Source of the DNA: a virus
Strand: one strand, 5' to 3'
IMG/VR virus record: IMGVR_UViG_3300044949_000876
Span: 1-23,213 of that record
DNA length: 23,213 bases
The notes under the pieces are model-generated. The model was given only the letters and a program-made list of their open reading frames with translations, did not search any database and was not told the origin of the DNA. Positions 816 through 5,230 of this stretch are shown one piece after another (position 1 is the first letter of the stretch; every line of letters begins with the position of its first letter). A program made the translations under genes and the position numbers.

Positions 816-1169
816 TCAGGCCAGCTCGTAGCCCTCAGCCTCTTTGGCATTGATCAGCCAGGTCGGCACGAGGAACATGCGAGACGCGCAGTTGATCCAC
901 TGATCGTTGACCAGCTCGCGTGCTTGCGACTTGGGTAGCCACACGATGGCAGGCTTGGGGTTGCCGCAGCTGTTCCAGCGGGTGCCCGTGACGCCGATGG
1001 CCTTTTCGGTCTCGCGCTCAACGCTGGCGGCGGAGATCAACTGGAAGCTGGAGATCAGCTTGCCGGCGGCCTTGCCAGCGGCGGTTTGGCCCAGGATGTC
1101 GCCGCTGATGTCGGTAGCGGCGACCCACTCAGATGTGGTGGCGATGGCGGGGAGCTTGGTACGGGTCAT
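816..1169 (-). CDS. hypothetical protein, 117 aa
   Basis: Start taken at ATG 1169 (MTRTKLPAIATTSEWVAATD). An in-frame ATG at 1211 would add a low-complexity proline run and would lie upstream of the probable transcription start. The sequence contains a Gly/Ala/Ser helix region (TAAGKAAGKLISSFQLISAA), then TRWNSCGNPKPAIVWLPKSQ and QWINCASRMFLVPTWLINAK. The two cysteines and many tryptophans suggest a compact folded domain. No family is recognised and no Shine-Dalgarno is seen. It is the first gene of a small leftward group with the zinc-ribbon and 112-aa genes. Confidence 0.5.
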   Translation of the reverse strand: MTRTKLPAIATTSEWVAATDISGDILGQTAAGKAAGKLISSFQLISAASVERETEKAIGVTGTRWNSCGNPKPAIVWLPKSQARELVNDQWINCASRMFLVPTWLINAKEAEGYELA

Positions 1170-1211
1170 GGCTGGCGGTGGCGGTGGGAGCTCTCTGCCC
1201 CCGATGCCCAT

Positions 1212-1347: not shown

Positions 1348-1620
1348 CTACGCCGACCGCCTCCGCAGCTCCCGCGCCCACCGGTGATGCTCAGCCGTCG
1401 GCTCTCCCAACGGCGGCGCGCCCTTGAGCGCCAGCTCCACCTGCAGGTTGGCCGCCTTGCGCTGCAGCTCAATGATCAGGTGCTGCTGCTGGTACCAGGC
1501 CTGGATCAGCTCATCGCAGCGCTCCGCCAGCTGGTCCCGGCTCATGTGCGCGGCGGCGCGGCGGTCGCGTTCCATCTCGAAACAGCTCGACAGGCTGAGG
1601 GTGAGATCGAGGCCCAGCAT
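1348..1620 (-). CDS. nblA: NblA-like phycobilisome degradation adaptor
   Basis: This 90-aa protein begins MLGLDLTLSLSSCFEMERDR. From the first LSL it lines up without gaps against NblA proteins as I remember them: LSL-x3-F, twelve residues to MSRDQL (NblA has MS/IS-x-(D/E)Q), then a helix with leucines at matching spacing. NblA is a small helical dimer that bridges phycobiliproteins to the ClpC protease, causing phycobilisome breakdown (bleaching) under nutrient stress. Copies are known in freshwater cyanophages such as Ma-LMM01 and PaV-LD. This copy has an extra C-terminal stretch of about 35 residues (LALKGAPPLGEPTAEHHRWA) that typical 55-65 aa NblA proteins lack. No Shine-Dalgarno is evident, and an in-frame TGA lies seven codons upstream. 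It could instead be an unrelated short helical protein. Confidence 0.55.
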   Translation of the reverse strand: MLGLDLTLSLSSCFEMERDRRAAAHMSRDQLAERCDELIQAWYQQQHLIIELQRKAANLQVELALKGAPPLGEPTAEHHRWARELRRRSA

Positions 1621-1810
1621 GTCCGCGCAGCAGTTGGCTCAGTCTGAGCAGTGCGACCCCCCGCCCTACATCACCGTGGAGCGTGACGCCCGTGGCGGCG
1701 CCTGCTGGGTGGTGGTTGGCCTGGGCACTGAGGTCCGCTGCTACTGCGGCCAGCGAGCGGTGGCGCTGCTGGAGATGATGTGCGCCTCTAAGGGGATCCC
1801 GACGCCTTAG
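1619..1810 (+). CDS. small Cys-containing hypothetical protein, plus strand, 63 aa
   Basis: This is the only gene called on the plus strand. ATG 1619 is preceded by GAGG seven bases upstream, and the frame ends at TAG 1808-1810. The protein contains PPYITVERDARGGACWVVVG, a two-strand pattern, followed by GTEVRCYCGQRAVALLEMM with a CxC pair and a helix. Its regular strand-strand-helix order argues against a chance frame. Its ATG lies in a CATG palindrome also used by the divergent NblA-like start, so the two genes overlap by two bases. It converges with the metallophosphoesterase gene. It could be a small regulator with its own transcript. No family is recognised. Confidence 0.45.
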   Translation: MSAQQLAQSEQCDPPPYITVERDARGGACWVVVGLGTEVRCYCGQRAVALLEMMCASKGIPTP

Positions 1811-2981: not shown

Positions 2982-3326
2982 TCACGACGGGGACACTTGA
3001 GGCTTACCCTCAGTGTGCGGACTACTACCAATCCACCCATCAATTCGCGCTGCACGATGTACGCAGTGCCAGGCCTGGGCCTCAAACCACTCTCGCCAGT
3101 CCGTCGAGGATTTCGCCCCGTTGCAGCGGCGGCATGCCGGCACCAGGTTTTCGGCCACCGTCAGCCCGCCCCGGGAGCGCGGCAGCACGTGGTCGAGGGT
3201 GTCCGCCTGCTCAGAGCAGTAGGCACAGCTGCTGGCCCAGGAGTCGAAGATTCGCCGCCTGAATCGGGCCTTGGTGATTTTCTTGGGCTGGAGCTCGGTC
3301 TGATCGATCAGGTGATCGAAGGGCAT
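2982..3326 (-). CDS. HNH endonuclease
   Basis: This 114-aa protein begins MPFDHLIDQTELQPKKITKA. Cys34-x-x-Cys37 (CAYC) and Cys65-x-x-Cys68 (CRRC) form the structural zinc site. The catalytic core is LDHVLPRSRGG with Asp45-His46, Asn60 in ENLVPAC and Asn69 after the second cysteine pair, the standard beta-beta-alpha-metal layout. Phage HNH proteins of this size may nick or cut DNA, in some phages together with the terminase during packaging. Others are homing-type. Here it follows the endolysin (TGATG overlap) and precedes a metallophosphoesterase, so it may act in packaging or DNA processing. All expected metal and catalytic residues are present. Confidence 0.85.
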   Translation of the reverse strand: MPFDHLIDQTELQPKKITKARFRRRIFDSWASSCAYCSEQADTLDHVLPRSRGGLTVAENLVPACRRCNGAKSSTDWREWFEAQAWHCVHRAARIDGWIGSSPHTEGKPQVSPS

Positions 3327-4609
3327 CAGCGCTCAGCGATGACTGCCCATCCCGTGTTCGCGCCTTCCACCTGCCACCGTGGGCCGAAGTTTCGCCGGCT
3401 GTACCTGGCGAACCGGGCCACGCCTCCCAGGGTGGCGCCGCTCACCAGATCGGCCTCACCGAACGGGTCGTGCACGACCAGGTGATCCTTCGTGTAGCCC
3501 ACCACGATCAGCCAGTGGCCGCCGCCGGCTGGTGCCGACACCGGGCCGCGGTGCAGGAACCCGACCGGCACGGGCACGCCGCGGTTGATCTGCTGCTCCA
3601 GATCGGCGAACCCGGCCACCTTGGTGAACTTCGCCCGGATCCCGAAGCTCGACAGCGCCCGAATCTGCGCGGTGGGGTCGGTGGTGTCGCCGTACTGCTG
3701 GACCCGCTTGAGGTACTGATCGTCGCCGTTCGGGCCGGTGAGGGTGCCGGGTTTGAGGTGCTGCAGCAGCATGGCGCAGCTGGAGCTGAAACACATTCGA
3801 GCCGCCTGGGCCCGGTCGGCGCTGTCCATCTGCGCAAACCAGGGCACCTGCAGCGGGTTGCCGTAGCCGGTCTGCTGCTGCAGCTCCACCGCCGGCCGCC
3901 CCACCTGCGAGATTGCCGCCACTGACCGGGCGAAGTAGGCCTCCCGATCCGCTAGGCCGTTGGCGGGGTCGCGGCCGTTGACCTTCGCCGAAACCTGCCG
4001 GCAGCTGGCGCCCTGATCCACAAACGCATTGATCGCGTTCAGGTGCCACCAGAACCCGGCGGAGGTGAACGGATACCGGATCGACACGTAGGCCGCCCCG
4101 TCCATCACGTCTGGGTCTTTGATGTAGTCGGCGAAGCGCTGGTAGTTGTAGCGGCCCGTGAGCTGGATCGCCCCGGCGCCCTTGAACCGGCGACCGTCAC
4201 CGGTGCGGGTGTTGCCCAGGTCCTGCCGGCCTTCGTAGGCGTCGCCGCTGGCGAGCTCCAGCATCCACCGCAGGCCGCCGGATTCGTGGCCGACCTGGGC
4301 CAAGAAGTGCCGGATCCTCGCCGGGGTGTTGATCGCGAATCTCCGCAGGCAGGAGTTGAGATCCGCCAGCTGCGACGCGCTGGGCGATCTGGTGAACACC
4401 GCCGCGGCCTGGGCCATCGTCACCAGCTCGGCCGGCGGCGCCGGCGCTGCAGGGCTGCCCTGTGCCCGCCAGAGGTCGGTGAACTCCTGGCGCTGCTCAG
4501 TGGTGGCCCGCTCCCACGCGGCTTCCCACGCGGCCAGCTGGTGGGGGGTCATTGCGCCGGCACGGGCGACGTGCTCAGCAGCAGCGCGGAAGGTGGCGAA
4601 GGTCATCAT
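3326..4609 (-). CDS. two-domain endolysin: GH19 chitinase-like muramidase plus C39-type peptidase
   Basis: This 427-aa protein starts MMTFATFRAAAEHVARAGAM; the second ATG could also serve. Residues about 60-235 are a glycoside hydrolase family 19 domain: QVGHESGG with candidate acid Glu109, YEG with Glu126 as the possible second acid, then GDGRRFKGAGAIQLTGRYNY and NGRDPANGLADR. Phage GH19 proteins cut peptidoglycan glycan strands. Residues about 253-427 match the C39-like peptidase family: nucleophile Cys273 in RMCFSSSCAMLL, His365 in GGHWLIVVGY and Asp381 in HDPFGE. No signal peptide is seen, so export relies on the holin candidates just upstream. The stop overlaps the HNH start (TGATG). The second domain might instead target a host surface protein or be a binding module. 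Confidence 0.85.
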   Translation of the reverse strand: MMTFATFRAAAEHVARAGAMTPHQLAAWEAAWERATTEQRQEFTDLWRAQGSPAAPAPPAELVTMAQAAAVFTRSPSASQLADLNSCLRRFAINTPARIRHFLAQVGHESGGLRWMLELASGDAYEGRQDLGNTRTGDGRRFKGAGAIQLTGRYNYQRFADYIKDPDVMDGAAYVSIRYPFTSAGFWWHLNAINAFVDQGASCRQVSAKVNGRDPANGLADREAYFARSVAAISQVGRPAVELQQQTGYGNPLQVPWFAQMDSADRAQAARMCFSSSCAMLLQHLKPGTLTGPNGDDQYLKRVQQYGDTTDPTAQIRALSSFGIRAKFTKVAGFADLEQQINRGVPVPVGFLHRGPVSAPAGGGHWLIVVGYTKDHLVVHDPFGEADLVSGATLGGVARFARYSRRNFGPRWQVEGANTGWAVIAER

Positions 4610-4758
4610 TTCAGATCGGGCAGGCGGTCGCCAGTGGCGTGATCAGCGCGGCGGTAGAGCCGGCGCCAGGCGGGCTTGACGACCAGCTCCGCAAAGCCGG
4701 TGGTGAGCAGCCACACCACCAGCCCCAGCAGCAGGTCAGCGTTCGGGTGCAGCGTCAT
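4606..4758 (-). CDS. small single-pass membrane protein, 50 aa (lysis cassette)
   Basis: ATG 4758 overlaps the stop of the holin candidate (ATGA), and TGA 4608-4606 overlaps the endolysin ATG (TGATG). The 50-aa product has one hydrophobic segment near its N-terminus (ADLLLGLVVWLLTTGFAELV), then a strongly basic stretch (KPAWRRLYRRADH). An N-terminal membrane anchor followed by positive charge suggests N-out/C-in orientation. Possible roles are antiholin, pinholin-like partner or i-spanin remnant. None can be shown. Coupling on both sides makes expression likely. Confidence 0.6.
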   Translation of the reverse strand: MTLHPNADLLLGLVVWLLTTGFAELVVKPAWRRLYRRADHATGDRLPDLK

Positions 4759-5042
4759 GCGTCGGGGTCGGTGGGGCGGCGCCGGGCGCCGGGTGGGGAG
4801 TCATCCTCGTGGCGGTGCAGTGCCGGGTTCTTAGTCCAGTACCCGACCACTCCGCCCGCAGCCGCGCCTAGGGCCAGGTCAGAGGCGCGGGTGATCATGC
4901 TGTGGCCCGTCATCCAGCAGCTGTCCAGATCCTTGCCAGCCACACGGCAATCGATGATGTAGCCGACGCCGCCGACGATCGCCAGGCCGGCTGTCACGGC
5001 TCCCAGCCACGCGGGTGCTTGGCGGGTCATGTCGGATTTCAT
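4755..5042 (-). CDS. putative holin, two membrane segments
   Basis: This 95-aa protein begins MKSDMTRQAPAWLGAVTAGL. Two hydrophobic stretches are visible: about residues 12-31 (WLGAVTAGLAIVGGVGYIID) and 53-70 (ASDLALGAAAGGVVGYWT). Each segment is followed by a cysteine or charged turn, and the C-terminal tail is polar and Arg/Asp/Pro-rich. Size, two membrane segments and a charged tail fit a class II type holin, which makes the inner-membrane lesion that releases the endolysin. The gene is linked by ATGA overlaps to a membrane protein on each side, and the endolysin follows 146 bases later. Which of the three small membrane proteins is the true holin cannot be decided from sequence. Confidence 0.55.
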   Translation of the reverse strand: MKSDMTRQAPAWLGAVTAGLAIVGGVGYIIDCRVAGKDLDSCWMTGHSMITRASDLALGAAAGGVVGYWTKNPALHRHEDDSPPGARRRPTDPDA

Positions 5043-5230
5043 CGCCCCGCCTCCGCCCGCCGCTCCACGTCCCTAAGCCGCTCTTCGTGGTCTTTGAGCA
5101 TCTCTTGAATCCCCCCAAGGATGGTGGTGGTCCGGGCCTCGAATCTGCCCAAGCCGTTGGCGATCTTCCAGAGGGCTGTGACTCCTGCGCCGCACAAGCC
5201 AAGGGCGGTAAGGATGATCTCGGGTCCCAC
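5039..5230 (-). CDS. small membrane protein with C-terminal coiled coil (lysis cassette)
   Basis: GTG 5230 gives a 63-aa protein: a hydrophobic N-terminal segment (IILTALGLCGAGVTALW), then a charged amphipathic helix (IQEMLKDHEERLRDVERRA). One transmembrane segment plus a cytoplasmic coiled coil is common among small proteins next to phage holins. No ATG is in frame. The frame stays open upstream into the 58-aa gene, so a CTG start about eight codons earlier is possible. No clear Shine-Dalgarno is seen. The stop overlaps the next ATG (ATGA), tying it to the holin candidate. It could be a holin, a holin regulator or a spanin-like accessory. Confidence 0.55.
   Translation of the reverse strand: MGPEIILTALGLCGAGVTALWKIANGLGRFEARTTTILGGIQEMLKDHEERLRDVERRAEAGR

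Follow-up and report, generated by a model that had tools for sequence, protein, structure and literature searches.

A conserved cyanosiphovirus gene is a probable remote relative of nblA and lies head-to-head with a divergent partner gene

NblA is the cyanobacterial adaptor for degradation of the phycobilisome, a homodimer that forms a four-helix bundle. The protein has been described as a helix-loop-helix, and a conserved motif in its N-terminal part is reported to bind ClpC and one in its C-terminal part to bind phycobiliproteins (PMC4103541). That some cyanophages carry nblA, as the preliminary description of the locus studied here had noted, is borne out by published work; phage nblA genes exist, expression in Synechocystis or S. 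elongatus of NblAs from other groups of phages results in the loss of phycobilin, and the NblA of S-SCSM1 was itself recognized by remote homology only (PMC9602691). Photosynthesis is needed by many cyanophages, and the sequenced Synechococcus siphoviruses are without psbA and psbD, for which other auxiliary genes have been proposed as substitutes (PMC6157547). The freshwater Synechococcus siphovirus S-LBS1 infects the phycoerythrin-rich Synechococcus TCC793, and the paper that describes this phage makes no mention of nblA (PMC6157547).

The stretch of viral DNA that we analyzed (hereafter the window; 23,213 nucleotides, IMG/VR record IMGVR_UViG_3300044949_000876) encodes, at positions 1348–1620 of the minus strand, a protein of 90 residues that begins at an ATG, whose N-terminal part reads MLGLDLTLSLSSCFEMERDRRAAAHMSRDQL..., and that carries LSL-x3-F, MSRDQL and a spacing of 12 residues from F14 to M26. 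This open reading frame (P0001) is, judging by its conservation, a real gene, with homologues in about 40 viral contigs and in S-LBS1. In particular, alignment-guided scans identified 37 viral contigs that encode this NblA-like family, and two more were reached through the partner gene described below; no cellular member emerged when 84,980 genomes were scanned by pattern. Codon comparisons indicate that the gene is under purifying selection, dN/dS between close relatives being approximately 0.05–0.13 over the first 65 codons. The nearest isolate to the window phage is S-LBS1, whose homologue (ATS93204, annotated as a ‘hypothetical protein’) is 56% identical to the window protein. Because S-LBS1 infects a phycoerythrin-rich Synechococcus, the host of the window phage is most likely a phycobilisome-bearing cyanobacterium of the freshwater Synechococcus type.

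Curated models failed to recognize the window protein as NblA. The Pfam NblA profile PF04485 (gathering score, 25 bits), with which the preliminary description had proposed to check its assignment, gave no match to the window protein at E ≤ 1 and none in the S-LBS1 record, and no member of the family alignment had NblA among its Pfam matches. Scans of the window protein with PHROGs and NCBIfam likewise returned no NblA match, and the phage NblA model PHROG 23930, which does match the NblAs of PaV-LD and Ma-LMM01, did not match it. (Weak Pfam names, among them release factor and cytochrome, were isolated matches with low scores and were rejected.) The absence of a match in these family models would be expected were the protein a short helical hairpin of separate origin whose likeness to NblA is fortuitous. 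However, the NblA of a cyanobacterium of the family Cyanobiaceae (G129) also falls under the PF04485 cut-off (22.7 versus 25 bits), and the negative Pfam result therefore weighs little for a phage of Cyanobiaceae-type hosts. PF04485 is thus a narrow model, and it probably under-counts NblA in Cyanobiaceae. Picocyanobacterial NblA (LSLGQQFELER...QAWHSQ, for example in L196 and L225–L251) often occurs as multiple copies within a genome.

Comparison of alignments with hhalign revealed a match between the NblA-like family (19 members) and cyanobacterial NblA (27 diverse, non-redundant sequences) that spans 50 ungapped columns (Prob 90.4, score 33.2) and places residues 5–54 of the window protein, encoded by positions 1459–1608 of the minus strand, opposite NblA columns 3–52. 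The features from which the relationship was originally proposed, namely LSL-x3-F, the 12-residue spacing, MSRDQL and a register with NblA free of gaps, are thus all upheld, as is the location of the start codon just ahead of the conserved block, which begins a few residues past the ATG. The highest score reached by 400 column-shuffled NblA alignments was 17.6, that reached by 200 shuffled family alignments was 15.8, reversed alignments scored below 10, and none of 42 further gene families from these phages, used as natural decoys, scored above 12.6. The match to NblA, which stands well above both the shuffled columns and the natural decoys, is therefore more than chance would produce. (Cyclic rotations of the NblA alignment were rejected as decoys because they retain the homologous blocks.) The match was weakened but not removed when the LSL block or the MSRDQL block was masked singly, and it was abolished when both were masked.

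Searches with single profiles and single proteins pointed the same way. When a profile built from 33 NblA sequences of Cyanobiaceae (NblA was found in 107 of the 201 genomes searched) was run against 7,553 six-frame open reading frames from phage loci, the window gene was detected with an E-value of 0.0013 and outranked the annotated NblAs of PaV-LD and Ma-LMM01. The first decoy appeared at rank 28 (E 7.9), preceded only by known phage NblAs, members of the NblA-like family and gp26 of phage S-CBS1; the most diverged members of the family fell among the decoys. BLASTP with the single window protein against 5,505 open reading frames, a database enriched in NblA loci, gave among the matches listed only NblA, the best being Cyanobiaceae NblA with 38–42% identity over 40–42 residues (E 0.004–0.005). 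Among 390 cyanobacterial genomes searched with the family profile, genuine NblA genes were hits 2 and 3; the top hit (E 1.7e-5) runs antisense to hydrogenase-looking genes and was set aside as a chance open reading frame. In a profile search of the PDB, S. elongatus NblA (3cs5) was matched with an E-value of 0.045, profile positions 5–52 aligning with residues 7–54 of 3cs5 across both helices, again ungapped, yet GCN4 coiled coils scored as high as NblA. Since coiled coils matched equally well in that search, and since an antisense reading frame reached 1.7e-5, single E-values are to be read as optimistic.

An AlphaFold2 model of the single chain built with 26 relatives contains helices at residues 10–24, 28–66 and 76–89 (pLDDT 91–96 over residues 11–60; pTM 0.50), the first two of which sit at the positions of the NblA helices, so that the predicted secondary structure agrees with the helix-loop-helix of NblA (PMC4103541). 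Foldseek with this model matched no PDB entry and gave no meaningful hit to viral models; short helical hairpins may lie below what this search can detect. A hairpin that resembles NblA by chance would account for this null result and for the equal scores of coiled coils in the PDB search; however, it would have to be reconciled with the shuffle and natural-decoy controls, the ranking among 7,553 open reading frames and the top BLASTP matches, all of which are NblA, and we regard it as highly improbable. Instead, these findings make it very probable that the window gene and nblA share a common ancestor, and they identify the gene, at the level of sequence, as a remote NblA relative that had gone without annotation as such. 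The NblA-like identity put forward earlier is accordingly retained on the evidence of profile–profile comparison, the Cyanobiaceae profile and BLASTP, and finds no backing in PF04485. In a tree of the 50 aligned columns, in which support is low, the NblA-like family is monophyletic (0.86), S-CBS1 gp26 is its sister (0.80), and both group with Cyanobiaceae NblA (0.63), a topology that agrees with acquisition of the gene from Cyanobiaceae-type hosts without proving it.

The pattern of conservation within the family bears on what the protein may do. Column counts over 26 distinct relatives show that LSL is invariant (26 of 26), as are M16, R20, A23, A24, R28, L38, Q45, L59 and V61, and that the helix 2 segment DELIQxxxQQ is retained. 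Position 14, by contrast, is alanine in 15 relatives, phenylalanine in six (the window included) and leucine in five, and the phenylalanine of LSL-x3-F is therefore not a family feature, since 20 of the 26 have alanine or leucine there. The E-Q of the classical motif L-S-x-E-Q-x-F is absent from the family. Because the N-terminal motif is the part of NblA reported to bind ClpC (PMC4103541), contact with ClpC may be altered in most members. This raises the main rival to a degradative role, namely that substrate contact is kept and protease contact lost: a homologue that pairs with host NblA, or that fills the phycobiliprotein site without recruiting ClpC, would protect the phycobilisome and allow light harvesting to continue for the phage. 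The loss of the aromatic residue and of E-Q in most members, alongside retention of LSL and helix 2, would fit such an antagonist, as would the reported role of the N-terminal motif in binding ClpC (PMC4103541) and the need of many cyanophages for photosynthesis (PMC6157547). However, the window's own clade retains F14–E15 as in host NblA, and those phage NblAs that have been assayed to date act to promote degradation (PMC9602691); we therefore think a protective role unlikely for the window protein.

The preliminary description had also pointed to a C-terminal extension of about 35 residues as absent from ordinary NblA. An extension of about 36 residues (residues 55–90, encoded by positions 1351–1458 of the minus strand) is indeed present; it comprises the end of helix 2, a proline-rich linker and a helix at residues 76–89 with a conserved EHxxxAREL, and P69, H78 and A82-R83-E84 are conserved across the 26 relatives. 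The window protein, at 90 residues against an NblA average of about 63, is thus not short by NblA standards; since tails are also found in some genuine NblAs, however, length is a weak criterion. A conserved extension that most cyanobacterial NblAs lack, in a gene whose place, ahead of a phage sigma factor and adjoining a partner gene, is itself conserved, could also be read as the new recognition element of an NblA-fold adaptor redirected to another Clp substrate, such as a host regulator. Nothing points to another substrate, however, and the core is most like the NblA of the likely host family, which makes redirection of this kind quite unlikely in our estimation.

On balance we favor, as probable though well short of certain, the interpretation that the window gene encodes a phage NblA adaptor for proteolysis of the phycobilisome; an NblA-type adaptor is the most likely function in view of the host context, given by the Synechococcus-phage type of the endolysin and by the phycoerythrin-rich host of S-LBS1, and of the loss of phycobilin caused by other phage NblAs. 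According to this model, the protein would be a phage-borne helix-turn-helix adaptor that derives from the NblA of Cyanobiaceae hosts or has a common ancestor with it. By analogy with NblA, its conserved N-terminal region, together with the terminal part of helix 2, would bridge the host ClpC–ClpP protease and phycobiliproteins, and dismantling of the phycobilisome during infection would free amino acids and limit light damage. The conserved C-terminal extension would probably add a second contact, with substrate, with ClpC or with the product of the divergent partner gene.

That partner gene (P0002; positions 1619–1810, plus strand; 63 residues) is arranged head-to-head with the NblA-like gene in 38 of 39 loci, where the two start codons overlap as CATG (positions 1618–1621 in the window). 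Across loci it encodes 53–65 residues with the conserved motifs PYITV..D.RGG.CWVVVG..RCY.G.RA, and AlphaFold2 models the product as three strands and a helix (core pLDDT 93–96). We found no relative of this protein in Pfam, PHROGs or the PDB, and Foldseek likewise returned nothing meaningful. Its Gln-Ser codons CAGTCT (positions 1640–1645, plus strand), 20–25 nt upstream of the NblA-like ATG, are invariant in 38 of 38 partner genes, yet TCT makes up only ~5% of the serine codons in long genes of the window (20 of 391). This invariance despite the rarity of TCT suggests a constraint at the level of the DNA just ahead of the NblA-like start. We considered CAGACTG as a phage promoter element and rejected it, there being no clear enrichment over 16 loci (4 of 33, versus 7% for permuted 7-mers); both copies in S-LBS1 lie 21–22 nt ahead of a start codon. 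We accordingly claim only local conservation of the DNA.

With the NblA-like gene taken as the plus strand, the loci share the order endolysin, optional HNH endonuclease and exonuclease, partner (minus), NblA-like gene (plus), variable genes, sigma factor (minus) and gp157. A downstream sigma factor is present in 34 of 39 loci, and four of the remaining five are close to an end of the contig or locus. In the window, all on the minus strand, an exonuclease-type protein (PHROG 284; positions 1815–2966) is the upstream neighbor, conserved there in part of the relatives, and is followed by an HNH endonuclease identified by Pfam and PHROG scans and locus comparison (positions 2982–3326) and by an endolysin of Synechococcus-phage type (positions 3326–4609; best matches, Synechococcus phages). 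The endolysin fuses an N-terminal muramidase/chitinase-like part to a C39-like peptidase C-terminal part. Downstream of the NblA-like gene, in the variable region before the sigma factor, the window has an open reading frame of 131 residues (positions 816–1211, minus strand) that is found in none of the related loci. The NblA-like gene thus does not sit at an accessory end, as had been supposed, but keeps its place across the related loci, with the lysis genes on one side, the phage sigma factor on the other and its divergent partner as immediate neighbor. In one related locus (L022), identity to the window is 90% or more as far as the NblA-like ATG and ~60–70% beyond it, and in another (L003) the pattern is reversed; it thus seems that the NblA-like allele is exchanged by recombination at its start codon, as a cassette.

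More tentatively, and with fairly low confidence, we suggest that the two genes form a module. In it, an NblA homologue that has gained a C-terminal helix and whose ClpC-binding motif is degenerate would cooperate with its head-to-head partner, serving either as a protease adaptor that is regulated, or directed by the partner, or to inhibit host NblA; the partner would control expression or activity of the adaptor. If the favored interpretation, an adaptor for phycobilisome proteolysis, is correct, dismantling of the antenna would be a conserved trait of this cyanosiphovirus lineage, and one overlooked because curated models under-detect NblA of the Cyanobiaceae type. Our findings raise the question of whether infection by these phages ends in destruction of the phycobilisome or in its protection.

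Set against known systems, the family resembles NblA (PF04485; 1ojh, 2q8v, 2qdo and 3cs5) in being short, in its N-terminal LSL block with 12-residue spacing to M-S-R/H-D/E, and in a predicted helix-turn-helix aligned over 50 ungapped columns, and it differs in lying below detection by the model, in a degenerate EQ-x-F and in its conserved extension of 36 residues, absent from most cyanobacterial NblAs. With Cyanobiaceae NblA, of Synechococcus/Cyanobium type, it shares the blocks L-S-L-x3-F-E-[LM]-E-R-x2-R and L-x-Q-A-W-[HY]-x-Q (38–42% identity over ~40 residues); Cyanobiaceae NblA differs by a one-residue gap between the helices, by having no M-S-R and by an unlike C-terminal tail. The NblAs of Ma-LMM01, MaMV-DC and PaV-LD (PHROG 23930) and of marine cyanomyoviruses such as S-SCSM1 are likewise borne by cyanophages, whereas the family described here occurs in S-LBS1-like siphoviruses, is unmatched by PHROG 23930, and adds both the extension and the divergent partner. 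Finally, gp25 and gp26 of the estuarine Synechococcus siphovirus S-CBS1 (L253, positions 4645–5079) have starts 33 bp apart, without overlap, and a different C-terminal motif, but they too lie between an endolysin and a sigma factor; gp26, which carries no NblA annotation, ranks with NblA, and gp25 resembles, by eye, the partner.
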